This document shows positions 3,239 through 26,029 of a DNA stretch of 64,000 nt, in pieces. Position 1 is the first letter of the stretch. Every line of letters begins with the position of its first letter. The notes beneath the pieces are model-generated. The model searched no databases. It saw nothing but the letters and a program-made list of their open reading frames with translations, and was not told the origin of the DNA. This stretch comes from Phlyctochytrium arcticum (taxonomy: Eukaryota; Chytridiomycota; Chytridiomycetes; Chytridiales; Chytridiaceae): assembly GCA_025602905.1 (NCBI GenBank), contig JAHLKI010000030.1, forward strand, positions 62,001-126,000, given 5' to 3'. The position numbers and the translations under genes were made by a program.

Positions 3239-4571
3239 ATGTCTGGCGTTGAAAGTCTCATTACGCAAGTGCAGCAGCCCTCGTCATCGACGGCGGCGGC
3301 GAGCAGTTCTACCAAAGATCCGCTTGCTGGCATTATAACATCAGTCCAACCGCCCGGTCAGGCTAACAGTAAGTATATTTCCAGCTCATGTAAACTAGCG
3401 ACTCAAATTAATAGTCACTCCAGCAACCACCCCGTCCCAACCAGCGGCAACATCCTCTCCCTCAACTTCCGTCGCCATTTCCAATCCTCCTCAACCATCC
3501 AGCGATGCCGCCACAAACCGACCGGCTACCAACTCTGTCAGATCTGGGCGTTCCTCATGGAAATCTATGCTTTCCTCCGTATTTGCGTGTTGTTACCCTG
3601 ATATGACACATAGTGAAGTGGACGTTGCTAAAGGCAAAGCAGAGGGCCACGCTTTATCAAATACGTCGGGAGTAGCTTCTGGAACTGCAATAGCGGCCGG
3701 GAAAGGTGCCGGAAAGGCTGGGGGCACTGGAGGGACTGGCACACAAAAAGACGGAAAGAATTTGGTACTCAAAGCGGCCGGACCAGCTGGAGATGTCTCA
3801 AAAACAAAACAGTCTGTGGTGGTACGTATTTGAGTATTTGCTTTCCTTCGATCGTTCGTCCGATTTACTTACGCCAAACAACAGCAACCTGGACCAAAAT
3901 ACCTTCTTAAACCGCTTGCACCGGAACACGCGGGCAAAAAGTGCCTTGTCCTCGATTTGGACGAAACCCTTGTACATAGTTCCTTCAAAGCCGTTCCTCA
4001 AGCTGATTTTATTATTCCTGTCGAAATCGATGGGCAGGTTCACAATGTTTATGTCCTGAAGCGTCCAGGTGTAGACGTATTTATGCAACGCCTGGGGGCC
4101 CAATTCGAGGTTGTAGTCTTCACGGCGAGTTTATCAAAGGTATGTCTGAGAAACGGTATTTTCAAAAGGTACCTGCGGCTAATATTCCCTCAATCTGCCT
4201 CTAGTATGCGGATCCAGTATTGGACAAGTTGGATCGGCATCGTGTCGTCGAACACCGGTTGTTCCGAGAAGCCTGTATACATCATAAAGGCAACTATGTG
4301 AAGGTTTGTTTTTGTGCATCTCTGTTGTCCTTCCCGCATCCTCATCTGCTACTTTTAGGATTTGAGCATGCTGGGTCGAGATCTCAAAGATGTCATTATT
4401 CTCGACAACTCTCCCGCCTCTTACATCTTCCACCCCACCAATGCTATACCGATTTCCAGTTGGTTCAATGACCCCAATGATACTGAGCTACTGGACTTGA
4501 TACCTTTTTTGGAGGATCTGAAGATGGTCGATAACGTCATGCTCGTCTTGGATAACTCGACGGACGAATAA
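3239..4571 (+). CDS. PSR1: Psr1/SCP-type CTD-like phosphatase (HAD family)
   Basis: Five exons (3239-3368, 3415-3821, 3885-4139, 4205-4303, 4359-4571) encode 367 residues. The N-terminal half is low-complexity (Ser/Thr/Pro, then Gly/Ala) and contains a SSVFACC segment resembling the acylated Cys pair of Psr1 and SCP proteins. The C-terminal half is a complete FCP1/SCP-type domain. It contains the catalytic motif [13 protein letters not shown] (nucleophile and acid/base Asp of the DxDxT/V signature), [26 protein letters not shown] and ILDNSPASY. All four junctions keep phase, and exon 4 begins inside the YADPVLD motif. By family this is a Mg2+-dependent Ser/Thr phosphatase, in yeast plasma-membrane bound and involved in stress signalling. 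The choice of Psr1 over other SCP-like members is inference. Confidence 0.87.
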
Positions 4572-4956: not shown

Positions 4957-7900
4957 CTATTCGCTATCTGATCCAGACCCACATCCAGAACCAGAACCTG
5001 ATTCTGAAGCTGACCCACTATTGTCTAAATGGGATGCATAATCCTCACCACTTAGATTTTCCTCATCTTCTTCCACAGCCTGAGGCTCCTCAGTGGCTTG
5101 AGCATCCGGATCATCGTTCTCGTTGTATCCTGGGAACGATACGCGCGATGGACAAAACTCGAGACCATATATATTGGGTCCAGGCTCTGCTGCCATCGAT
5201 TTTGCAGCGTTCGTGTCTACATCGACGTCCATAACATCGGCATCTGGGTTCGCATCAGATATACCACCCGCCGGCACATCACCCATCAAATCCTCAATGA
5301 ATGATTCGTTGGTAACTTTCCAAATATTCCAGGCTCGAATTTGAGTAGCAGAGGAGGAACTGATCGACATGTGTATGTCGTTCCCGCAGACCTTGCGCAG
5401 TTGTATCGATTGAATTCCTACCGGCTCGAAAACGTCGCCAGCAAGTCCGTCACTTGTCAGGCGTGTTGCAGCTTGCAGCGCTAGCGACTCGTGGGCGGGA
5501 CTCCAAACAATCTGAAGAGCATGTCGATTGGGAGAGTCGGTACACGGTGGGTAAGTGTAATTGACGGTTGAAGTTGGTGTAACGAGAGTAGCGGTTCGAG
5601 ATTTCGAGCAGAGAGCAAGTGTCACCGTGGTTGCATGGTCTTCACCCTCGGTCCCGGAAAATGCAAACCAGACGTTGGGCTCGACAGTCTCCCGGCCCTC
5701 CTCGTCCACAATGTCAAAAGTTACATTGATAAAAATGGGTTGGTGGAGCTGTCGGAATATATTTTGCATGGCAACTTTGGCACGCGCGTCACTCGTTCCT
5801 GACAGATTAATCAAGCCGGTTGCTGGAGCAAGACTTGCTTGATTCTTCAGGGCGACTTTGGTAGGTTGCATGGCCCAAAGAAGGCTTCCGGATGTGTAAA
5901 TTGGGGGGTAAAAGTGGCAATGTTGCTTGGCATGCGATAGCTTGCCCTGAGAGCGACATTCCGTGCCGTACCAACAATTGGGCCGGTCTCTCACCGATGA
6001 TGGTAGTTTGTCCAGTTTGGACATGATGATGTCGTGAATAAAGTCTTCGAGCATCTTGTCGGCGCAATGATGGCACACATCACTGTTAAGGCGCATTCTC
6101 GTAACGGGTTGCCATCGCTTGGTATAAGATTGTGACGACAAAGCTTCCGGTAAGCATTTATCCCACAGCTCAGTAACTTCAAGGTTCTGGTGATATAGTA
6201 ATGCTCGAGCTACTTCCGATTCATACTTGTTGTCTTTAAAGGTACCTTCGGGCAGTTGGAAATCCTTCAATTTGCAGTATCGCTCACGATGTTGTTCGAG
6301 GGGTTGCACCTTGCCCTCAGATTTCTGACAGAGCAAACACATGTGGGAGCGGCGAACGAGCACCACGTATCGAATTCGAACCTGGCTTTCGCTGTACACA
6401 ATAAACTCGTTGTGTGCAAGTCGCTGTCTCCAGTAGTAACCCTTATTATCAGCTGCTCCTGTAGTAACAATGGGCGGACGCGGTATCTTGACCTAACACA
6501 AAATAATTGACCATTAGAAACAAATATCGCGAATGATGTAAGAAGTCGCAACCCACCCCGTCGTTGAGAATGATGACTTCACTCGGTTCTTGGGTACCAT
6601 GGCCCCATGTACTCTCGGTGCCTTCTTTAGGTTTCAGCAGAAACTCTGCGTCCGTTGTTTTGTAGCATTTGCCTAATGCTACCTCACATAGAAGTAGGCA
6701 TGCATAACCGTCAGTCTTGCCTCCCCAAGTAACTGCTGAGTAGTTTATGCTTTTCTTGAACATGTCAGCAAAGTATACTCCTTTGCCAAACATATATCCA
6801 GAGGCAGAGGCCTCCACAGGAGCAATGCGGAGACCTTGACTCAAGATACCCATCATATTTCCCATTCCAGAACCATGCCATAGGAGGCGTCTGTTCAAAT
6901 TGTGCTGATGGGGAGTGAACCTCTCTGTTTCGCCAGCACGGTCGACCTTGAGGAGTGACACAATTCCGTAATCTGTGGATGAGTCCGTCATGTAATCATT
7001 AACCAGTCGGAACTCATCGGTCGTGCGATCAAGCAATTCAGTCAAGTTACACTTCAGAGCTGATGCAACATAGTCGAGGGGATTGATCACTTTGCGCCGG
7101 GTATGTGCCGCAAGAAGGAAGTCCGATCCTGGTCCTAAGTACATGAGACTAGCCATCTTGACCAGCTCTTTGTTGAGGTTGTACTGGTCCAAAAATCTGC
7201 GCTCTCCAGGCTGCTTGATACCTTGCTTTGGTAGCAAGCGATAATATGCATTTGTCAAGTCCAATATACGAAGCCTTGTGGCTTTAAGGGCCTTCACATC
7301 CGGAATGCCGGTGCCAGACATTTTGGCAAGTGCATCACGAATCTCCAAGAGGATGCTGTAACCCTTCCGCACCGCATCTCCATCAAAGTCCCCAACTTGC
7401 AGGTCGACATCAGTGGCTTCAATGGCGTGGTCTACGGAACTTAAATCTGCAATAATGTTGATAAAGTCTTGCAATCCGTCGCTCAGTTGTGACGGCGGTG
7501 CGTCTTGAAGGTCCAAAGACTTCAACGATACGTGCTGATGTGTCGGAGCCTTGACAGGTATATACTTGCCACTTTTTTCGACGAATGCTGATGTCCTATT
7601 CTCCCACGAATTGCCTGACTTGGCACTGAAAATCTTCAGAAATTCCGCAATGCACTCTTCTCGATTTGAGTAAGGTGTGCGCTGATGCATGCCGGTCTCT
7701 TTCACATCACCCCAATTGTTGAAGAGAATGTATAGGTCTTGGACCTTGTTGTGAACCACCTGCATTTTGTAGAAGACGCCGAGACCATGAGAGCCTCTGT
7801 CGACATCAAATTTAGTCATGTGAATGTCGTAAAAGCCGCCATGATCATCGGCGACCACATGTGCCACACTTTGCGGCAGATTTAGAAGGGGACTGACTGG

Positions 7901-10900
7901 TGGAGGCTGCAGTCGTTTTGCTTCTTGATACTGCTCCAATGTCATTCCTTTGCTTGCGGCGATTTTGCGGAGCTTCTCTAGCCTTGTCTCCTCTGCGAGT
8001 TTGCGTAATTCTTGTCGACCTTCTTCCACATCATTGGCAACGTCCACATCAATGTGGCGAGAGGTTGTTGCAGGAACAGGGGTTAAGGTGGTTGAAGGGA
8101 CATTGACTGGCTGTGCTCCAAGTCCAAAAAGTGCTGCCAACATCGTATTTGATGTTTGGAGCTTTGCGTAATGCATCGGCCGCTGACCAGTTTTATCAGA
8201 TACTTCCAAATCAGCGCCGGAAAAAACGGCTTTTCGTAACATGGTGACATTCTCGAACGAAGCTATGGTTTGTGGTTGAACTATGTGATGAACAACGGTC
8301 CTTCCTTTGTTGTCAGTGACGTTCCACATGATCCCACCACCGTCGTCCATGCTGGATTCGAAATGACTGAGGATGGCTAAGAACGCGTCCATGTTATTTC
8401 GCCGAGCACACACCATCAATGAAGTCAATCCATCCGGGTTCGCTTCAGGTTTAGACTTCAGATTAACATCAACATTAAGGCTGAGCAATCTAGTTACGGC
8501 GGTTCGATCATCCTGCCAAATGGCGAGGTCGAGCAAAGTTTGGCCGGACTTGAAATCAAACAGCTCTGGACTTCGCGCAATTTGTGCTTGTTTGATTAAC
8601 TCCCAGCGACGGAATTGACCCGGTACGTCATTCTTTGCCTCAGAGGCAAAAAGAACGTGTTGAAGGAAGGATTCACCAGTCTCCGGGTCATGTTGAGTTA
8701 CATCTGCACCCGCTTTGATTAGTTCCAATACGACATTCGCATCTTTCATTGCAAATGCCAAATGAAGCGGGGTTTGGCCACTTTTTGGATGGCAGACATT
8801 GACTTGAGCCCCCGCGGCAAACAGTTCTTGACGAATGGCTTGAGTAGAGGTTAAACTCTCGAAGATAGGATGCAGGATAATGAACTTGTCCTTCTCAGTC
8901 ATATTGAACTCCCTAATGGATGGCTTATTGACGTCCGCTCCCGCGGCAACCAAAAACTTCACGATGGCATTGTTTTTATTCACAATCGCTGCCATAAGCG
9001 GAGTTGGATATCCACCATTGTCTTCAGAGGCCGTGTCATCGTCAACCGCAATCTTGCACGCAATCATTCTCTGGAAAATATTCGCATTAGTCAAGGAACG
9101 CTAAAAAAATCGGTAGTCTGGCCACTTACGTCGACGATATCGGCATCCCCCAATTGTACAGCCTGAAGCATAAGTGAGGGGCCGTGGCCGCTACGCACAA
9201 TATTTGTAGGCCACTCTTGATACTTTGCCAGGAGCGCCTTGCATATTTTCGAACTACGTGCCTCCAATGCGTAACTGAGCGCCGATCTCCCAGAATTATC
9301 AAGCGTAGGCAAAGTATTTTGTGGTAAAAGTGGCAGAAGTAAGTCGATCACAGTGGAATGGGCGTACTGCGCTACACAGTGCAGGGGCGTGCGGAGCGTT
9401 TTTTGGTCCAAAAATGCCATATTGAAGCCCTTTGCATGCAGCATCTCAAAGATTATGACCGAGTACTCCTCCCATTGGTCTGGCAGAGTTGGTTCAAAGT
9501 CACAACACACCAGAGGTAAGCTTTTATGATCGGCGTTTTCGCTCGACGCCTTGGCGATCAGCAGCTCGGCAATGTGATATTTTCCGGTACTCAATGCTGC
9601 GTGTACTGAGTCCAGAAATGGAAGCCCTTGCCCCTGCATCGTCATAAATGCCATGCTCATGAAACCGTTAAGAAGACTGTACTGAAAGGTGGATATTTGT
9701 GCTCCATCCACCTTGCAAAGGCTTCCCAAACTTGTCGCGCCCTTGTCCACAAGCATGGCTGCCAAATCCGCATGCTGATGCAACATTGCCAATTGCATGG
9801 GACTATTGCCGTCCGCATCTAACGCGGCAATACGTGATCCCCTCTCCAAAAAGTAGTTACAACAGGTAAATGCACCGCATCTCGCGGCATAATGAAGCAG
9901 AGTTCGGCCAAATATGTCAGGGACATCAATTGCAATATCGTCTCTCTCCAACAGCCAATTCACAACTTCAATGGGATCAGCCTTGATCTGACCAGTCGCA
10001 ATGTCTGAATCCTCCCAAAGCTCGGTGAGCCATTCACGGCCAAGCACTTCATATTGCTGAAGTGAGATTTTGGCACGCCCGGCCGCATCCCGGGCTCGCG
10101 CCGCTGCTGCACTTTCTCTTTCATGCACCTTTACATTAACGGCGGCAATCCACTTGTCGTCCTCTGTAACATTAGCGGGTTGTAGAGCGACGGATTGCAC
10201 TAATTTTGCTTGCTCTGTCTTCTGCTCTTCGAGTTCCTTCAAGTGACATTTCCAAATGTCCATATCGGCCCTCATCTTCTCTGTTTTCGCCATTGCAGGA
10301 ATGAAACCCGCATTAACAAACGCAATGTGCAAAGGCGTGCGCCCTTGGCAATCGACTGCATTGATTGACGCGCCTTTTTCAATCAGCAAACGCTCAATTT
10401 TCAAAGATGTGTTGACGGCATTTTTGGACTTTTGAACCGCAACATGTAAAGGTGTCAAGTCGATTTGGTTCTTGACCATAGGATCACCGCCAGAATCCAG
10501 TAGAAGTTTTACCGCTCTCCATTTCATGCTTCTGACCGCATGATGCAGGACATATTCCCCGTCGCCATCTTTGTCGTTTACATCTTCAGGCACAATCCCA
10601 GCCTTCACAAGATGCGCAATGCACTCCACGGATCCTGTCTTTGCTGCTTCCATAAGCGCAGTGGTTCCCCGGCAAGATTTGAGTTTCCAACTACTCTTTG
10701 CAGTTAGCAGACCTTCTACTGCAATTGCGCTTCCAAGACGGCATGCAATATGCAATGCTGTCTCCCCCGACTTGTTTTGTTTGTCTACATTGAGGTCCGT
10801 TCCTTTTTCCAAGAGGAGAAGAATGATACGGTCTTCGGCAAGTCGAGCTGCATGGTGTAGAGGGGTGTTTCCATCTTTGTCAGCCAATGCGAGTGAAGGG

Positions 10901-13900
10901 CGATTGAGCAGAGTGGCTTCTACAAGTTTGACATTCCTGGATTGTACTGCTACTGAGACCACCGTGGAATCATTTTCGTCCACACGCGAAGTATCCGCGC
11001 CCAAATTGATAAGTGACGTCGCAGGAATTAGGAGCTGCCGGCGAACGAAGTGCATGAGAGCAGTCTTCTGACTCGAGGGGGCGAAGTCCACCATGCCAGA
11101 ACTGTGCGAAACAAATTTTTCGAGTGATACTATTTGTTCTGACATTGTTTGACCTGGAGCGGCTCCCGCATTTCGCTTTGTTTGCGAAAATGGGTCAGTC
11201 TTGAGGTTTGCGACCAATAGCAAAGGTGTGTCGGTTGAACCATCTAGTTTGATGCACAGCCGAGCGGGATTCGCCCCGTGCTGCAACAGGAACGATACGC
11301 AGCTGTTTCTTTCCTTGATTGTGCCTGCCTGACAATTTTCTGAAAGGCCCGACAATGCCAAGTAGAGCGGAGTTCTCAAGTTACCGGTGAGGCTCCCGTC
11401 TGCACAACTACCAAAGTCACAAAGAGTGCGGACCAGCTCACTTTGATGGTACTGGGCTGCGAAGTGAAGACTTGTAAATCCCAACTCGTTCGGAGGCGGC
11501 TGATCATGCGGATGATCCTTGGGAAGCTGAACTTGTTCGTCAAATGTCAGATCATCTGAGCCACTCAACAGCCTCATCACTATCTGCAGTTGCTCCCATC
11601 GACATGTTAACCCTTTTGATCCAGCCTTCGATGAGGACTTGGATTGACTCTGCAAGGATTTAAGTGCCTCAACATGGAATTTGACAGCTGCCACAAGCGG
11701 AGGATATCCAGCGTCGTTCGCAGTCCCTAGCTACAAAGTCGGATAGAAATACATCAATTACACACACTCGCCGTATGCATCAAAACTCTATCTTACCATC
11801 TTTATTAAAACATCACGTTGCTGCTGCAACTTGGCCATCAACTGACTTGAGATTTTAGACTCGAACGGAACCTTGCCAACGTTGATACCCTTCAACTTGT
11901 CGGAAAACAGTCGCACGCCAGCCTTGGCAGCGATGTGAAAGGCATAATGCAAAATGGTATCTCCTTGACCGTAACGAGCGATCTCTACATCAGCACTGTG
12001 ATCCAAGAGCAAGTTAATCATAGGATCAGAGCCATGTTTCAACGCGAGTGCAAGTGGAGTTTCACCAGTCTTGGAGACGGCATTGTGTTCGATGTCTGTC
12101 AGAGGAATGAGCGAGGTCTACGTTAGTTCCGCAAACTAACATACCAGGCTGCTTGAAAAATATTTTAAGCATGTCCTTCCGGGTTCGCCACCAGTCACTC
12201 AGGTCATAAGCAAGTACTTCTTTGGCGTTGGAATTGGCATTGGCTTGCAAAGTCGATTTAGTAGCCGCCAAGATATGGAGCGGGGTCTCTCCTTTGAGAT
12301 TACGGATATTGACATCCGCTTTGTGCTCCAATAAACGAGTGAGTTTTTGCAAAAGACGTTTAGCTTCCTTTGCACTGGTAATCTCCTCATACATACAGCG
12401 ATGAAGCATAGAAATGCCTTGAATGAGATGTCAATTAGCAAAGAGGGCAGTATGGCCACATTTTGAACGCCGTACCGTCGTTGTCGCGATGATTGACTTC
12501 AATGTTGGGTAACGCAAGTAATGTGGAGACACAACGTGTGTGTCCCTTCATATCCGCAACCATCAGAGGGGAATACTTCCAATTGTTTGGGACATTGGGA
12601 TCCGCATCACCATAGCTCACTAACAGCTGTATGAGTGATGGCCACCCGAAACCTAGGGAATTGTTAAGTTCACAATGAAACTCCATTCCAAGCAGTTCTG
12701 TCTACCAGCGGCGTAGTGAATTGGGGTGTTGTCGGATATGTCTCTGCCGTTGGCATCAGACCCCTGGTCCAGCAAGAATTTTGCGACATCAAAATGTCCA
12801 TTCTTTACTGCAACATGCAACACCGTCTGGCCATTAGTATCAGCAGCGGTTACATCTCCTCCTGCCCCAATCAAAATCCGCACAATGTCTAGAAGTCCAG
12901 CTGCGGCGGCTAAGTGGAGAGCTGTGAATTTGGTCTTCTTGATGACTGCGCTGGGGGATGCACCAGCCTGAAGTAGTTTGGTGACGCTTTGAACATGTCC
13001 GTAATGAGCAGCGTAATGGAGTGCCGTGTAAGCCTCTGTAAAATGGATTGATCAGATACGCACTTTGAAAAAGTAGGTCGCCCCACTCACCTTTTAGTAA
13101 TGTATGGTCTGCTCCTACAGTTTGGGTCGCAGCCAATAAAATGGCAATGTTTTTTTCGCGCCCTAAACAGTGTCAAAGGATGACTATGCCAATGGCGTCA
13201 AACAAATCTTACCATATTTGGCGGCCAAGAGCAATGGTGTCAGTCTTGTGAAATCAGCTACGGAGGGGTCCATTCCTTTACTCAAAAGATACTCTAGGGC
13301 GTCCGGTTTTGTGGCTCCGGCAGCAAAGTGTAAACAGGTTCGACCTCGTGCATCCTGCTCAGAAGCCGCGTATTCTGATACTTCTTCAAAAAGCTCTTTC
13401 AAGAATTTGGTGCAGGGATTGATGGCTGCCAACCTGCAGGGAAAAATTACTCAGCTACCAAAAAATAGTCAAATTTCAATAGGATCATACTCTAAGGGTG
13501 TGATTCCGCTATTTTCAGTTGCCTTTTTCAGAATTTGATTTTTCCGATATGGAGTCAAACTTTCATGCTCGGTAATCTAAAGAATAGTCAGTACTTGGTT
13601 GGGTAACATTTCTTTACATCGAAACAGGGTCTAACCTTGAGGACTTCAATGTGCAGCTTATTAAACCCATGTCCATTTTCGAAAGCTTGTACCAAATGCC
13701 TTGCAATATGAAGATTTCCTGCCGCGGCAGCTTCATAGACCCCGTTTTTTTGGAGCATATGAGTTAGATCAGAGCCCAATGTTGGCGCAACCATTACGAG
13801 ATCAATAGTGGACTCTTGCAGATCTGGGTACGCCACAATGCGGTTAAGAACATCCCAAGAAATGCCTAACTTTTGCGCAGCGTAGTCTGGAGCATCATTG

Positions 13901-15558
13901 GAACTGCGCCCCTTAGGAGGACCAGTGCGTGCCAGTTTGGCAAGCGGATCACAGTTGGACGTTTTATAGAAGGCGTTGTTGCCCTCTCGGTTTCCTCGTG
14001 ATTCGTTCACAGATCTGTGCAACAGGATGCTCAGATGACATCCGCAGAACTTTCAATCCATACACTGAACAAGGGCAACTTACCGGATTTGACGGCCGTA
14101 AGATCTGTTAGAGACGTAACCGGTATTGGATGGGGAATGGCATTGATGATCTTTAGGTTCTATTCTTGAACGGTACACCGGGTCTCGATTTAGCAATAAG
14201 CCTAAGCTTCTGGTATCGTTTGCTACCGCCGCCATATAGAATGCCGTGTGGATAGGTGTGTCTGGCTTCACGCCCCAACTGCACGGAGGGGTATTTGTAA
14301 TGTCCGCCAGACACGATTCCAACAGAGGGTGATTTCCAGTCACTACAGCCCGTGCATATTCTCGACTAGAACAGACTGTGCAGCACTGGTAATCAATCTG
14401 ATCTACAGGCGTGCTTGGGTCTCGATCAGAGTGCGAGCACTTTGGGGCAGAAACTGTGCAGACTTTGTCTTTTTGTGCCGCTATTCTTTCCTGAATTTCA
14501 CGCTCGAGTTGCGCTGCATGTGCTTTGCCACCCTTTCCGGCCTTTGTCCTGCTGGTGGCAGCTTTTTTTCCTTTGCCTTTGGTTCCCCCTTTGCCCTTTT
14601 TGCGGGCAGGCTCATCGCTACCACTGTCACTCACTAACGCCGTAGGGAGAGCAGCTCGCGAATGTCCCACAGCAGCCTTCTTACTAGCGCGGATGCCGCC
14701 AGTCGACTGACGCGAGCGCTTACCGCTTATGGTGATACTATCTTGATCATCACCAGAAAGCGACCCGTCTCCCAAATATGTTTGGTCTCGCTTGATCGTC
14801 AGAGGGCGACGAGTATTACTCATGCTAGCATCGTACTCCTCGACAAGTTCAGAATCAACCTCGTCCGCAGGAAGCCACTCGTCGGCGTCGTGGGAAAACC
14901 CCTCCCATTTGACAAGATATTGCACTTTTCCCTGTTTGACCGAGTTAGTGCAATGTCAGAAATCCATAGCATGCAGACGCTCACCGCACGGGTCCTTTGC
15001 GCCAAAATCTTTTCTGCGAAGATGGTATTTGAATCCTCTCCGGAAAGCTGAGCGTCTGTTTCACTTTCTTCATCTTCGCTTTCATCTGATTCGACTTGCG
15101 TTCCTTCATTTGTAGGACTTGGCGCTCTAGGGGAAGGGACTCCAGACTTTCGAGGTCTCAAGCGCGATTCTTTCACTTCCACAGGAGGATCCGCATACTT
15201 TCGAGGTGATTCGCGTGGACGCCCAGCATCTGATTGGGAAACACATTAGATTTTGGGGGCAAAAATCGTATCACAGACTGCCTAGGGCATCGCTACCTTG
15301 TGCGTCGCTTTCTGAACTATCGTCGCGAGCTACGGTATTCAAGACTTTATGCTTTTTCTTGGCAGAAAATATGGCTATTTCTTGCAAGCCTTTTGCAGGA
15401 CTAGCTGCAATCCGAGTACTCTTTCTTCGGGGCGTTCCAGACATTGATGATGAGCCCGCATCGTCAGGAAAATCAAATACATCCTGCCCGTTGGCAGAAA
15501 TTAAGTCGGCTTGTTTTCCTACGGTGCTCTGCTTCCCCCTTTTACTCGTTCGTCCCAT
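4957..15558 (-). CDS. Chromodomain-ankyrin-WGR-PARP giant protein with CHFR-like Cys-rich C-terminus
   Basis: One gene of 14 exons encodes about 3,280 residues. Introns: 15230-15296, 14932-14984, 14015-14083, 13577-13635, 13434-13490, 13163-13212, 13036-13090, 12653-12705, 12418-12475, 12096-12144, 11731-11796, 9071-9129, 6493-6556; every junction keeps phase. Domains in order: basic/acidic N-terminus; chromodomain (~156-203, QYLVKWEGF, EWLP); Lys-rich linker; roughly three dozen ankyrin-type repeats (~400-2260); WGR domain (~2335-2440, core reads NWGDVKETG); PARP helical regulatory domain (~2450-2590); PARP catalytic domain with the full H-Y-E triad at H2663 (LLWHGSG), Y2697 (GVYFADM) and E2798 (NEFIVYSES); a Cys/His-rich module (~2821-2961, including CWYGTECRSQ); an acidic Ser/Gly tail. 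The triad implies poly-ADP-ribosylation. Start 15558 (MGRTSKRG) was preferred over an in-frame ATG at 15609. Confidence 0.85.
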
Positions 15559-19438: not shown

Positions 19439-21372
19439 ATGTTCCACCAAACGTACAACCCGTCAATCGGTCAACCCGATATGATGGTATCTTCTTCTCA
19501 ACAATCGGTATTCCCAAGTACGGCAAGCGATACGCATACTTACCTGGCACCGGGTCGCCGTGGCAGTTACCCAGCGTCTCGGGAAACATCACCCAGTCCA
19601 GGACATACCGATACCGACCGCGGATCTCGTCGAGCGTCTGCCGCCCAAAATCTGCATATCCAAACTCGATTTGATGATCATGTTGAACCAACTGAAGTCT
19701 CTGAAGTGAATATTCCTGCGGTAGTTACATTTACGGTTCCGCAAGGTGTGTCCATCCCGTCTTCACCAGCGCAACAGCAATGGAATGGATCGGTTGCTGC
19801 TTCACCCACGCAGCATCTATCACCAAAATGGATCAATAACGGTCCCGATGCAAGACGGATGCAGTCTCCGAGCTCGCCCACCTTTCTTCACCCCACCGTG
19901 ACATTACAGCTTTCTCAGCAAGGAATCGATGCGCCGAGGTCGGCCGAAGTAGCGTCGCAGCCGCTCTCGAGAAGCAGCAGCGCAGTCAATTTCGCACAAG
20001 GACATACGCGTCGGCTGAGCAGCGCGAGCAGCATAAGTGACCGCGGGTATCAAAACCTCGAGCGAACTACCTCTCCTATGGGTCTTAGTACTGGTCGCTC
20101 TGGTTCTGTCATCATGATTGGGGACGAATACGGGCCTTTAACAAATCCTCAAGCTGCTGAGGATGTTCGGTTACTGCACAACGCTCTGAAGGGTGTTGAC
20201 GGTCATGGCGTAGGTGCGTGCACTTTGTTTTGCATCGCTTAGAGTTTGTTTTAGCGGTACTAATCATTGTTTTATCAGACAATAAAACTATTATTACGAT
20301 CGTGGGATGCCGGACCCCGGACCAGGCAGCACAGATTGCGCAGTCGTACAAAGCCTCTTATGGAATCAATTTGGCGGACGAGTGTCGAAAGCATCTCTCT
20401 AGCAATTTTGGAAAGTTGTGTGTAGCTTTAACTACACCTCTACCCGAATTCGATGCGGAATGTCTGCACGAAGCCATGGTATGGTTATGGTCATGTCCTT
20501 TCATACCTACTGCGCTGACAGTCAAGCATAGAGTGGCCTTGGTACCAGTGAAGATGTTCTCATAGAGGTTAGCCACACATTGGAGATGGCAATCAAATGC
20601 ATCTCCACTAACTTTGGTTGTAATTTTGTAGACTTTGATTGGACGCTCAAATGCAGAAATCAATTCCATCAAAGAAGCTTACTTTAACAAATATATGCGG
20701 GTTCTCGAAAAGGAGATTGTAAGCGAGACGTCAAGTCATTTACGAAAGCTACTGGTGGCCACGATTCAGGTTAGTCAACCACTTTCAGGATAGGTGAAGA
20801 CTTACTTACCCTGGCTATTCAGGCTCAACGAGATGAATCGGAGCAAACGTATGATGTAGAGCGAGATGTTGAGGTTTTGTTTCAGGAATCAAGGAAATCT
20901 TGGTGGAAGGGCCGCGATGAGAGCGTGTTTATTGCGACTCTGTGTGGACGATCTGATGCACATTTACTCCAAGTTTTTGATATGTACCAGAGAAAGCATG
21001 GCTCAACCGTAGAACAACTGGTACAGAATCAAACGGGCGGAGATTTGGGACGGGGATTGATGTGCTTGGGTACGTATAACGTAGCTTGCGCATGAAGTAT
21101 TCCTCAACTAAAGGCCACCTTACATAGTACACTCCGTGCAGAACCGTCCCGCACATGTAGCGACTCTCATCGAATCCAGCTTACACGCCGTGATTGGCAT
21201 CCATGACGGTGCACTCATTCGGTTGACTGCGCGATACCGAGATCCACGCGTTATGCGTCTTGTTCGTGATGCGTATGAACATGTCTATGGCAAGAGTCTA
21301 TATCGGCGGGTAGAGGATATGACATCGGGGGACTACAAGCGGCTTCTGTTACTTTGCATTGGGCTTGATTAA
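19439..21372 (+). CDS. Annexin with long disordered N-terminus
   Basis: Six exons (19439-20213, 20279-20478, 20532-20567, 20632-20769, 20823-21069, 21128-21372) encode 546 residues. The first ~235 are Ser/Pro/Gln-rich and probably disordered. Four annexin repeats follow: repeat 1 with GHGVDNKTIITIV, repeat 2 with GLGTSEDVLIETLIGRS, repeat 3 with WKGRDESVFIATLCGRS and repeat 4 ending DMTSGDYKRLLLLCI. Exon 3 is only 36 nt and encodes the G-x-G-T loop of repeat 2; skipping it would remove a type II calcium-binding loop. Annexins bind acidic phospholipids in a Ca2+-dependent way. The loop of repeat 1 has Val for the usual Thr and repeat 4 looks degenerate, so calcium affinity may differ between repeats. 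Confidence 0.88.
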
Positions 21373-21931
21373 GGATTCTATCATGGTTTCGGATTGTACA
21401 TACAAACATACAAACTTGGTCCACCTAAAAATATGCACAAACTTTTACCGTAGCCAGACGCTGTTACTGCTCTTAGACTTTTTCACTGCATAAGAGGCTA
21501 CCACTTCTGGCTCAGATTTTCGTGTTTTCACCAAGGCGGAATATCGGACAAATAAAAAAAAACCATTGATCCGCCAGTTACACTTCTCATACAGGGCCTT
21601 CACCAAATAAATCCTAAAAACCCCTGTTCAATCACAATGTAGTTAGCGATAAAGTCATATGTCAGCTTGCAGGTAAAGAATCCAAAAAAAAATCGGGGCG
21701 GAATAGACTATCTCGTTCGTTTCATTTGTCCAAATCGGGCGGGACTGACTTGAGTTTGAGGCGGCCGTGGAAGCAGCTGGTTGGCAGCAGCATCATCCAA
21801 GCTTCCACCTCGAAATCAACGCTCTTACACACCCCAAAGGACGACTATAAACAACAGGATACTCTTGCGAAAAAACAGGCGGACAAACTTAGTACGAAGA
21901 GCGGACCTACTTTACTGCTATATAGAACCGC
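21373..21931. other. Intergenic region upstream of SED5
   Basis: This 559-bp gap lies between the annexin stop and the SED5 ATG. It has A-rich tracts (around 21550 and 21680) and short spurious frames only. It presumably holds the annexin 3' UTR and SED5 promoter. Confidence 0.45.
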
Positions 21932-22987
21932 ATGACAGTACGAGATCGGAGTGCGGAATTCCACGCGGCAGTAGAGTCAATACTGTCGCGGTCAGGCAGC
22001 GTACTGCCTACCGAACGGCAACGACTAGTGAATGGACTAAATGGGGCGGTCTCGGGTCCGCAGAGCAAATCCGATTTTGCGCGGGCGGCCGCGGGAATAG
22101 GACGAGATATCAATTCAACCGTGGCAAAGCTGCAAAAACTCGCACGCTTGGCGAAACGAAAGACGCTGTTTGACGACCGACCAGTGGAAATCAACGAACT
22201 CATTTACATTATCAAGCAAGACATTGCCAAGATAAATCAACAAATAGCGGGACTGTCATCATGGATGAAAAAGAATGGGCCAAATGCCAATCCTCGAGGG
22301 GGTGCGGGTGGAACAGGGAAGGCGGCGGGGAGCAATAAGCAGATGCAAGAGCATTCCTCTAATGTGTTGACAAGTCTGCAGAGCAAGCTTGCCACGACGT
22401 CTACCGAGTTTAAAAACATTTTGGAAATTCGGACCGAGAATATGAAGGAGCAAAAGAATCGCCGGGATCAGTACTCGTCATTTACGGTCCCGCCATCATC
22501 GCAAGGATCTGGCTTATTGGGTGGGCAGGGGCAGGATTTGCTGGTCTCACCGCTGTATGACCCAGAGCGCAAGTCAACGCCAGCTCCGGGATCATCTAGT
22601 GCAGTCAATGGCGGTGGCTCGGTCGTTATAGATTTCGGCGCTGCCGGACTTGCTCCCGGAACACAACAGCAACAGCAACTCCTGATACCCACGACCTCCA
22701 ACGTCAACATGGAGATTATAGAATCGCGGTCGCAAGCCATCGAGTCGATTGAATCTACCATAGCCGAGCTTGGCCAAATATACCAAAACTTTGCGACCAT
22801 GGTGGCGAGCCAGCGCGAGCAGGTCCAGCGGATCGACGAGAATGTGCTAGACATTGAGATGAATGTACAGGGTGGACATTCCCAGCTAGTAACGTACTAC
22901 CAGAACATTAGCAGTAATCGATGGCTGATGATGAAGGTGTTTGCGGCTCTCATCTTTTTCTTTATGTTATTTGTCCTCATGACCTGA
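21932..22987 (+). CDS. SED5: Syntaxin-5 / Sed5 Qa-SNARE
   Basis: A single exon encodes 351 residues with the layout of Sed5. The N-terminal peptide MTVRDRSAEFHAAV matches the short motif by which Sed5 binds the SM protein Sly1. A helical Habc-like region follows (roughly residues 40-175), then a Gly/Ser/Gln-rich linker. The Qa SNARE helix follows, with the zero-layer Gln in IAELGQIYQNFATMV, and then a single C-terminal membrane anchor (VFAALIFFFMLFVLMT). The protein would act in ER-Golgi and intra-Golgi vesicle fusion. Its length is close to that of yeast Sed5. Confidence 0.93.
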   Translation: MTVRDRSAEFHAAVESILSRSGSVLPTERQRLVNGLNGAVSGPQSKSDFARAAAGIGRDINSTVAKLQKLARLAKRKTLFDDRPVEINELIYIIKQDIAKINQQIAGLSSWMKKNGPNANPRGGAGGTGKAAGSNKQMQEHSSNVLTSLQSKLATTSTEFKNILEIRTENMKEQKNRRDQYSSFTVPPSSQGSGLLGGQGQDLLVSPLYDPERKSTPAPGSSSAVNGGGSVVIDFGAAGLAPGTQQQQQLLIPTTSNVNMEIIESRSQAIESIESTIAELGQIYQNFATMVASQREQVQRIDENVLDIEMNVQGGHSQLVTYYQNISSNRWLMMKVFAALIFFFMLFVLMT

Positions 22988-23217: not shown

Positions 23218-23365
23218 AGCGAGTAGACCCCCGCTTCCCTCCCTCCACACATCAACCATCAAACAACTTAAGTATTCTGCTACCCATACATAGCACGCAT
23301 CGCTCTACTACTACTACGACCACGCATCGCACTCTACGCATCAGCATCAGCAACATCAGCCAGTG

Positions 23366-26029
23366 ATGAACCCAGAAATCTTTACCGACAAGACAAACGC
23401 CATCCTCACTCGAGCCCAGGAACTCGCTCGCGAATTTGCCCACGTCCAGCTCGCCCCCGTCCACATTGCGAGTGCACTCTTTGACGACGAAGATGCCCTG
23501 TTCCGATCCATCATCACGAAAGCCGGTGGCGATCCCGCCGTCGCCGAACGACGCCTGAAATCTCTGCTCGTCCGCCAACCCACCCAAGATCCACCACCAG
23601 ACCAACTCTCCTTTGCCCCCGCTACCGCCAAAGTTCTTCGCACGGCCGACGATCTTCGCAAAAAGCAAAAGGACACGCACCTCTCGGTCGATCATGTCAT
23701 TTCGGCTCTATTGGAACAAAACGATCTGATGACTGCTCTCGGCGAAGCAGGCCTGACCAAATCCACCATCGACAAGGCTATTTCACAAATTCGCGGTAAC
23801 CGACACGTCGACTCCAAAAGCGCCGATTCCACGTACGAAGCACTCTCCAAGTATGCCATTGACTTGGTCGATATGGCCGAAAAGGGAAAGCTGGATCCCT
23901 GTATTGGCCGCGACGACGAGATCCGAAGAGTCATTCGAGTGCTTGCCCGCCGAACCAAGAACAACCCTGTCCTAGTCGGAGAACCTGGAGTCGGCAAAAC
24001 GGCCATTGTCGAGGGTTTGGCCCAGCGAATCGTACGCAAAGATGTCCCGCAATCCCTCCAATCCCGGATTTACTCGCTCGACATGGGTGCCTTGATTGCT
24101 GGAGCCAAATACCGCGGCGAGTTTGAAGAACGACTCAAGGCGGTCCTCAAGGAAGTTTCTGACGCCAAGGGCAACATTATCCTATTCATCGACGAATTGC
24201 ATACCGTTCTCGGAGCTGGCAAGTCGGAAGGATCCATGGATGCTGCAAACTTGATGAAGCCCATGCTCGCTCGTGGGGAGCTCCGATTGATTGGTGCCAC
24301 TACCCTCGCGGAATATCAAAAGTACGTTGAAAAAGACGCAGCCTTTGAACGTCGATTCCAAATGGTCCAAGTCGGTGAACCATCCGTCGAATCAACCATC
24401 TCTATTCTTCGAGGTATTCGCGAAAAGTGGGAGACTTTCCATGGAGTTCGCATTCTCGACACCGCTCTTGTCACCGCTGCAACCCTGGCCGACAGATACA
24501 TTACAGCACGCTTCCTTCCCGACAAGGCCATTGATTTGGTCGATGAGGCCTGTGCCAACACACGAGTCCAGCTCGATTCCCAACCCGAAATCATTGATGT
24601 CCTGGAACGCAAACACCTGCAACTGGAAGTAGAAGCTACGGCACTCTCAAGGGAAAAGGACCCAGCTTCCGAACAACGTCTGGTCAAGGTCAAGGAGGAT
24701 ATGGCCCACATCAATGAGCAACTCAAACCTCTCAAGCTCCGTTACGAACAAGAAAAGGGCCGTGTTGACGACATCCGAACCCTTCGAACCAAGCTGGAAG
24801 ACCTCAAGCACAAGATTAGCGATGCCGAACGTCGCCACGACCTTGCCTTGGCTGCCGATCTGCGATACTTTGCCGTGCCCGATATCGAAAAGAAGATCAA
24901 AGAACTAGAGCAACAAAACAAGGAGGAAAAGCAGCGACTCTTGGACTCTGGCGGCGCTGGACAGCTTTTATCTGAAGTCGTTACTCCCGACCAAATCATG
25001 GAAGTTGTATCCCGCTGGACTGGAATTCCTGTCACCAAACTCAGCAAAACCCAGATTGATCGCCTGCTCCAACTATCCCAAGTCCTTCATCAACGCGTCG
25101 TCGGTCAAGACCAAGCAGTCAACGCTGTCGCGGAAGCCGTTCTTCGATCAAGGGCCGGTCTCTCTGGTGGTGGCACCATTGGCTCATTCTTATTCCTGGG
25201 ACCTACTGGTGTTGGCAAAACGGAGCTGGCCAAAGCTCTGGCAGCCGAACTTTTCGATGACGACAAGAAGGGACTTATCCGTATCGATATGTCCGAGTAC
25301 ATGGAACAGCATACCGTCGCTCGTTTGATTGGTGCTCCTCCCGGCTACGTTGGATACGACGAAGGTGGACAACTCACGGAAGCCGTTCGCCGACACCCGT
25401 ACTGTGTCGTGCTCTTTGATGAAGTCGAGAAAGCCCACCCTCAAGTTCTCAACGTCTTACTTCAAGTTCTGGACGACGGTCGCCTCACGGACGGAAAAGG
25501 TCGAGTCGTCGATTTCCACAACACGGTCATTATCATGACATCCAACGTCGGCTCCCACCTTTTGCAAGTCAGCCCAGTGGACGAAGCAGTCAAATCCGCC
25601 GTCATGAATGAAGTCCGCCGAACCTTCAAGCCGGAGCTCCTCAACCGAATGACTGATGTTGTCATCTTCCATCCCCTCTCCCGTACCGACCTCCGCCAAA
25701 TTGTCAAGATTCAACTGGCCGATATTGGCAAGCGACTGGCATCCAAGCACATTCACCTCAACATGTCCGACAAGGCCGCCGATCTCATCCTGGAAAATGC
25801 CTACGATCCACTCTACGGTGCCCGACCTCTGCGACGATACCTCGAACGCATCCTGGTCACCAAGATTTCCCGGATGCTCATCAGCGGCACACTCCAAGAG
25901 TACAGCGAAGCCTTTGTGGAGACGGTCGAAGAAGCTGGCGACATGCCCTTGACGGAAGAGGATCTGCAGGAAGGTGTGGTCGTTCGAGTGATCAGCATGG
26001 ACAATGGCAACCGGATGGATGCAGACTGA
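23366..26029 (+). CDS. HSP104: Hsp104 / ClpB-type disaggregase
   Basis: A single long exon encodes 887 residues (yeast Hsp104 has 908). The N-terminal Clp repeat domain starts [17 protein letters not shown]1 has Walker [10 protein letters not shown] (~205) and Walker [10 protein letters not shown]. The coiled-coil middle domain spans roughly residues 400-530. NBD2 has Walker [13 protein letters not shown] (~612) and Walker [12 protein letters not shown]. The C-terminus lacks the long acidic tail of yeast Hsp104 and ends NGNRMDAD. The hexameric AAA+ enzyme threads aggregated proteins through its pore together with Hsp70/Hsp40. The ATG at 23366 is the first in frame. The codon usage is strongly C-ending compared with neighbours, as expected for a highly expressed stress gene. 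Confidence 0.96.

Follow-up and report, generated by a model that had tools for sequence, protein, structure and literature searches.

A chytrid gene model combining a probable ankyrin-type Clade 1 PARP with a chromodomain and a CHFR-type C-terminal end

Clade 1A of the PARP family combines ankyrin repeats with WGR, PARP regulatory (PRD) and PARP catalytic domains and, according to the text of Citarelli 2010 (PMC2964712), occurs in Dictyostelium, fungi and Paramecium. Ankyrin-type Clade 1 PARPs were also placed in Amoebozoa, Opisthokonta and Saprolegnia in the text of Perina 2014 (PMC4245714), and both accounts give a His-Tyr-Glu (H-Y-E) triad for nearly all Clade 1 members. Combinations of PARP with a PBZ zinc finger were listed in Perina 2014 for Entamoeba, Capsaspora and the lancelet. 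As far as the text of that 2014 survey goes, PBZ was not found in fungi (PMC4245714); later, PBZ was reported in DNA ligase E of Mortierella, according to the text of PMC10665377. Here, a 64,000-nucleotide stretch of the Phlyctochytrium arcticum genome (contig JAHLKI010000030.1, positions 62,001 to 126,000; hereafter the window) was analyzed. A gene on its minus strand encodes what is probably, judging from its domains, an ankyrin-type Clade 1 PARP with an added chromodomain and a CHFR-type end.

The gene was rebuilt from 15558 to 4957 of the window as 14 exons separated by 13 GT-AG introns, with a spliced open reading frame of 3,280 amino acids, a single stop codon at its end and every intron in phase. 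The coordinates, intron count, phase consistency and protein length given in the initial annotation were thereby reproduced. Introns 1 to 13 measured 67, 53, 69, 59, 57, 50, 55, 53, 58, 49, 66, 59, and 64 nucleotides (range, 49 to 69; mean, 58.4), and the G+C fraction was 0.489 in exons and 0.415 in introns. The Met at 15558 is the earliest Met of its open frame. The model was predicted from genomic sequence alone, with splice sites picked by signals, frame and fit to the repeats. Introns 4 and 5 were positioned by eye, the candidates chosen for introns 1 and 8 had a signal score of 3.5 against 4.5 for the rejected ones, and some further junctions had tied scores. When six alternative splice choices were made one at a time, each left a single open frame, with lengths of 3,257 to 3,286 amino acids. 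Thus, the gene does not depend on any single choice, although its exact length does.

Codon usage also favored the long frame claimed earlier. With codon frequencies trained on two frames elsewhere in the window (23294-26029, Clp/AAA; 21926-22987, SNARE), the chosen frame scored highest in 13 of the 14 exons; exon 2 was a near tie, at 0.054 against 0.082 for the +1 frame. Stops were present in the +1 and +2 frames of all exons, save exon 7, whose +2 frame was open.

The spliced protein was scanned with Pfam in four pieces covering its whole length. The Chromo, ankyrin, WGR, PARP_reg and PARP models scored above their cut-offs, and zf-CRD was borderline. WGR reached 48 bits (cut-off, 22), PARP_reg 37.2 bits (cut-off, 26.8) and PARP 141.8 bits (cut-off, 26.7). 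Intron 13 (6556-6493) splits the catalytic domain, with profile positions 2 to 157 in exon 13 and 173 to 197 in exon 14, and thereby links the two exons; the last 25 profile positions, in exon 14, gave a sub-cut-off 18.3 bits alone. Exon 13 holds ankyrin repeats together with WGR, PRD and the greater part of the PARP domain. Residues 403 to 831 of that exon aligned with PARP1 (E value, 2.1e-55). Against the PDB, the catalytic domain matched PARP1 at 1.3e-40, PARP2 at 5.5e-40, PARP3 at 1.2e-24, PARP4 at 2.5e-18 and tankyrase-2 at 4.2e-4. Alignment to PARP1 placed the H-Y-E triad at H2663, Y2697 and E2798, which predicts an enzyme that forms poly(ADP-ribose) (PAR). The PARP1/2-type WGR-PRD-ART core recognized in the initial annotation was therefore confirmed in all three domains, in its nearest PDB relatives and in its triad.

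The literal WGR motif reads Trp-Gly-Asp: the Trp is retained, and the Arg is replaced by Asp. Trp-Gly-Arg is intact in the genome's two other PARPs. In the PARP1 crystal structure described in the text of PMC8150716, the Trp is the main DNA contact of WGR and the Arg contacts Zn1, not DNA; in PARP2, the Arg of the motif contacts a second nucleosome. Since the WGR domain as such scored above its cut-off, the loss of the literal motif is taken as variation within the family. It would fit an altered interdomain contact, because the protein has no zf-PARP match, and by itself it would not preclude DNA binding. The proposal that this protein binds DNA breaks through WGR thus keeps its domain and its Trp and loses the Arg; break sensing is possible, in an altered form.

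Ankyrin families were found in three of the four scanned pieces, with Ank_2 at 187 and 246 bits in the two large ankyrin pieces. Exons 6, 8, 9, 10, and 11, each scanned alone, exceeded the Pfam cut-off for an ankyrin model, as did exons 12 and 13; exon 7 (23 residues) gave no Pfam match alone up to an E value of 10. A self-trained profile counted 28 ankyrin-like units at residues 342 to 2213. This is a rough figure, because the profile found no unit in exon 10, where Pfam sees Ank_4 at 23.4 bits (cut-off, 22.7). The first three units had served as seeds, and a profile trained on the later repeats alone scored them weakly.

These domains give the features of Clade 1, with WGR, PRD and PARP above the Pfam cut-off and H-Y-E present, and, by domain order, that of Clade 1A, with ankyrin repeats N-terminal to WGR. 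The same plan is shared by Dictyostelium ADPRT3 and the fungal Clade 1A members, and C. elegans PME-5 is similar. In contrast to the present protein, no CHFR-type cysteine-rich domain (CRD) is given for Clade 1A in the text, as distinct from the figures, of PMC2964712 and PMC4245714, and a count of the word "chromodomain" in their main texts gives 0 for both. Among the matches listed from the open-access full-text literature, no title or abstract start combined chromodomain, ankyrin, WGR and PARP in one protein; this judgment covers titles and the starts of abstracts, and PMC8841529, PMC7464352 and PMC3599309 hold all four words. The system had been put forward as undescribed. Its ankyrin-WGR-PRD-PARP part is Clade 1A and PARP with PBZ has been reported, so that the known kind is the ankyrin PARP; the chromodomain and the CHFR-type CRD were not found in print and look undescribed within the open-access literature searched. 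As expected for a eukaryotic gene, scans of prokaryote contigs gave 17 pattern stretches and no relative, and scans of viral contigs gave 9 stretches and no relative, with no stretch for the last exon.

PARP1 and PARP2 have the WGR-PRD-ART core and the triad in common with this protein. Unlike them, it has no zf-PARP, PADR1 or BRCT match in any of the four Pfam pieces, has WGD in place of WGR, and carries ankyrin, chromodomain and CRD parts in addition. With CHFR, a ubiquitin ligase of the plan FHA-RING-CRD/PBZ, it shares the PBZ zinc ligands and, by a borderline profile match, the distal half of the CRD, whereas none of the four pieces gave an FHA or RING match.

The C-terminal resemblance to CHFR was seen in two adjoining elements. 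The zf-CRD match spans the distal half of the profile only (positions 73 to 152 of 158). A 153-residue piece gave two PDB matches up to an E value of 10, both to CHFR (6.7e-6, chain 2xoc, and 7.4e-6), which we take to be the human protein. The finger that follows fits 7 of the 10 positions of the PBZ consensus, as quoted in the text of PMC4030884, among them the four zinc ligands, and the same score, 7 of 10, was obtained for the PDB CHFR. The zinc-ligand pattern, which was framed after the sequence had been seen, occurred in none of 2000 shuffled versions of the protein. The aromatic residue preceding the last PBZ His is replaced by His, which counts against PBZ identity.

A separate, intact CHFR lies on contig C5 (L049:720-2768) as a 682-codon frame with FHA at 45 bits, RING at 32.1 bits and zf-CRD at 76.1 bits. 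Consequently, the giant PARP carries its C-terminal module as an extra part, not as a displaced CHFR. Duplication of the genome's own CHFR is a possible source of the CRD, at 30.6% identity over 85 columns. Downstream of the finger, positions 5263-5910 gave no Pfam match up to an E value of 10, and the genome showed no further copy of them up to an E value of 1; this stretch is possibly an undescribed domain. An AlphaFold2 model of the last exon alone, made without an alignment, had a mean pLDDT of 34 and was not used.

At the other end of the protein, Pfam Chromo matched residues 160 to 203 at 40.3 bits (cut-off, 25.1), and the closest PDB matches were CBX5 and other HP1 proteins (E value, 4.5e-10). 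Intron 2 (14984-14932) splits this domain, which scored 40.3 bits when joined and 30.3 bits in exon 3 alone; exons 2 and 3 are linked accordingly. The initial annotation had the domain read methyl-lysine. In place of the aromatic cage of Drosophila HP1 (Tyr-Trp-Tyr; presumably Tyr24, Trp45 and Tyr48), it has Ile-Trp-Phe, in an alignment that is ungapped between the cage positions, so that the first of the three aromatics is missing. Where HP1 has Glu52, the protein has Ala. For comparison, 20 of the 150 chromodomain matches scored in the genome were fetched, of which a pattern read 17, several of them near-copies, and missed 3. The first cage position is Tyr or Phe in all 17, which is the only independent observation here, as the pattern itself demanded the Trp and the third aromatic; Ala at the Glu52 position recurred in 2 of the 17. 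The HP1-type gene of the genome, read by eye over an intron, retains Tyr and Trp-x-x-Tyr. Cages of two aromatic residues exist, as in CHD1, so that binding of methyl-lysine is conceivable. The chromodomain itself, with its Trp and Phe, thus stands, and standard methyl-lysine reading is doubtful because the first cage residue is Ile.

Other parts of a PAR system were found in the genome. A profile search (E value up to 0.01) found three PARP loci, including the giant PARP. A PARP1-like gene on contig C25 has, unspliced, frames for zf-PARP, BRCT and a sub-cut-off PADR1, and a WGR-PARP gene on contig C3 has a weak BRCT-like frame upstream (E value, 0.029). PARG-type matches occurred at two loci. 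A PBZ gene on contig C4 (L007:928-1827, minus strand) has a strong PBZ finger (47.9 bits); the open frame beside it gave no Pfam match at 0.001, and an FHA reading of that frame was dropped. As to chromatin, at least 150 chromodomain matches were scored among 190 candidates, many of them in long open frames that are probably chromodomain retroelements. In an HP1-type gene on contig C2 (L054), about 0.5 kb separates the chromo match from the chromo-shadow match, and a frame on contig C1 (L053) has Pre-SET and SET matches, both under the cut-off; silencing of the H3K9 type is therefore plausible in this genome.

On balance we lean, if only slightly, to a single gene whose product is a Clade 1 PARP of the ankyrin type that resides in the nucleus, writes PAR and also binds the PAR it makes. 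The open spliced frame, the domains, the triad and the zinc ligands are its directly supported parts; we infer the nuclear location and each functional step. By analogy with the family, the WGR and helical domains would restrain a PARP1/2-like active site and release it on DNA or chromatin, and the ankyrin array may hold client proteins. With its H-Y-E triad, the enzyme is predicted to build PAR chains on itself and on the clients. The CHFR-type CRD/PBZ, judging from homology to the PAR-binding domain of CHFR, would grip these chains, so that the enzyme could be retained or clustered at sites of PAR synthesis. The chromodomain would be an extra tether to chromatin or protein; as the first aromatic of its cage is missing, its ligand is probably something other than standard trimethyl-lysine. 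Two other PARPs, the PARG-type loci, CHFR and the PBZ gene provide a PAR system in which such an enzyme could act.

Several results weigh against this reading. The zf-CRD match was borderline, at 25.3 bits in hmmscan (cut-off, 26.3) and 26.8 bits in the genome search. The Pfam PBZ model gave the finger 11.3 bits, far under its cut-off of 22.7, and a genome search with it (E value up to 1) returned a sole place, on contig C4; this finger and that of the CHFR gene on C5 were both missed. With the latter among the misses, the model may serve CHFR-type fingers poorly. Of the CHFR-like Cys-rich module annotated at the outset, the distal CRD half, the match to CHFR and the four ligands can be retained, with both Pfam scores as reservations. 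The literal WGR motif is lost, as described above, and the Clade 1A placement is one by domain content. The weakest link is the join of the chromodomain exons (1 to 3) with exon 6, the earliest exon that is clearly ankyrin, via introns 3 to 5, which splice sites and coding signal suggest. Here two neighbors on the same strand, a chromodomain gene made up of exons 1 to 3 and, starting near exon 4, an ankyrin-PARP gene, may have been wrongly joined: the unspliced exon 3 frame stops right at the intron 3 donor, Pfam found no ankyrin in exon 3, and exons 4 and 5 alone gave no Pfam match up to an E value of 10. A piece spanning exons 3 to 6 gave one Pfam ankyrin match, in exon 4, at an E value of 0.16. 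However, the donor of intron 3 is GTAAGT and its acceptor CACAG, and the exon 3 tail contains a weak ankyrin-like element. When the training of the profile was confined to residues 700 and beyond, this tail scored 4.2 bits, a level reached by none of 500 shuffles, and exon 4 scored 0.5 bits, a level reached by 19 of 500. Exon 4 is also open for 73 codons before its first Met, with an in-frame coding score of 0.121 against -0.109 and -0.463 (the training set took in exons 12 to 14 of the same gene). Because these codons are coding-like, exon 4 requires an upstream exon, and we consider two genes quite improbable.

If there is one gene, its function could still differ from that outlined above. 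The chromodomain could read a methylated histone lysine while WGR binds DNA breaks, so that PAR is written on methyl-marked chromatin. The HP1/CBX relatives of the chromodomain, the remaining cage Trp and Phe, the WGR Trp, and the HP1-type gene and sub-cut-off Pre-SET/SET frame are in keeping with this. Set against them are the Ile at the first cage position, unlike all 17 chromodomains read, the Ala at the Glu52 position, though this also occurs in 2 of them, and the Asp in WGR; we regard the idea as unlikely but deserving of attention. In the HUSH complex, as described in the text of PMC7532188, MPP8, with its chromodomain and ankyrin repeats, is joined with TASOR, a pseudo-PARP. The present protein combines the same three elements, in one chain with a triad instead of two proteins with a dead PARP, and might be a one-chain counterpart with a live PARP aimed at retroelements, of which the many long-frame chromodomain matches would be the expected sign. 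Since its PARP domain resembles PARP1/2, its cage is incomplete and convergence of common domains suffices to explain the resemblance, we hold this to be very unlikely. An extension of the idea, a self-spreading PAR domain in which the live PARP would be delivered to retroelement chromatin and its PAR gripped by its own CHFR-type reader for silencing and guarding, is likewise highly improbable. A long ankyrin array ahead of the PARP domain also recalls tankyrase, which would make the protein an ankyrin scaffold enzyme acting chiefly outside chromatin. Tankyrase identity was rejected, as WGR and PRD are present, no SAM match was found up to an E value of 1 in the four pieces, and the catalytic domain is close to PARP1 and distant from tankyrase-2; we give a tankyrase-like role hardly any credence.

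For the favored PAR-writing and PAR-binding enzyme, a writer and a candidate PAR reader would stand in one chain together with a chromatin-type domain, which would allow a direct test of read-write feedback with PAR, as with histone methylation. Judging from the text of the literature cited here, ankyrin-type Clade 1 PARPs are a little-studied branch of the family. In addition, CHFR and a further PBZ gene are present in this genome while the 2014 survey, in its text, found no fungal PBZ, so that the lineage may be useful for tracing fungal losses. The features of the locus are collected in Table 1.

Table 1. Features of the giant PARP gene and ordinary neighbors, in window coordinates
Feature	Position	Strand	Basis
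Whole coding region, 14 exons, 3,280 aa	4957..15558	-	Splicing, codon-usage frame support, splice alternatives
Chromodomain (residues 157-203), interrupted by intron 14984-14932	14830..15023	-	Pfam Chromo 40.3 bits; PDB CBX5 E 4.5e-10
Remainder of exon 3: basic linker followed by Cys-rich stretch and weak ankyrin-like element (residues 346-452)	14086..14829	-	Ankyrin profile 4.2 bits
Exon 4	13636..14014	-	73 open coding-like codons before first Met; no Pfam match alone
Ankyrin array, residues 638-2213, 25 of 28 units, introns 6-12 inside	8225..13342	-	Pfam Ank families; self-trained profile
WGR domain, motif WGD	7589..7831	-	Pfam WGR 48 bits; genome profile match
PARP regulatory (helical) domain	7070..7492	-	Pfam PARP_reg 37.2 bits
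PARP catalytic domain, interrupted by intron 6556-6493; triad H2663, Y2697, E2798	6355..7018	-	Pfam PARP; PDB matches; triad by PARP1 alignment
Distal half of CHFR-type cysteine-rich domain	6034..6261	-	zf-CRD 25.3 / 26.8 bits; CHFR 2xoc E 6.7e-6
PBZ-like zinc finger, residues 2939-2962, C-x5-C-x7-H-x5-H	5914..5985	-	Consensus and ligand pattern
Stretch of ~216 residues after PBZ	5263..5910	-	No Pfam match; no second genome copy
Acidic Ser/Gly-rich tail	4957..5262	-	Composition
NIF-type phosphatase (ordinary neighbor)	3834-4571		Domain match
Annexin (ordinary neighbor)	20200-20565		Domain match
SNARE protein (ordinary neighbor)	21926-22987		Domain match
Clp/Hsp104-type ATPase (ordinary neighbor)	23294-26029		Domain match

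The genome searched comprises 31.5 Mb in 91 contigs, and its gene content is in keeping with a zoosporic fungus. The chitin synthase N-terminal family, which we take to be fungal, had 7 matches in it, and the family of PACRG, presumably a flagellar protein, had 5 matches at two loci.

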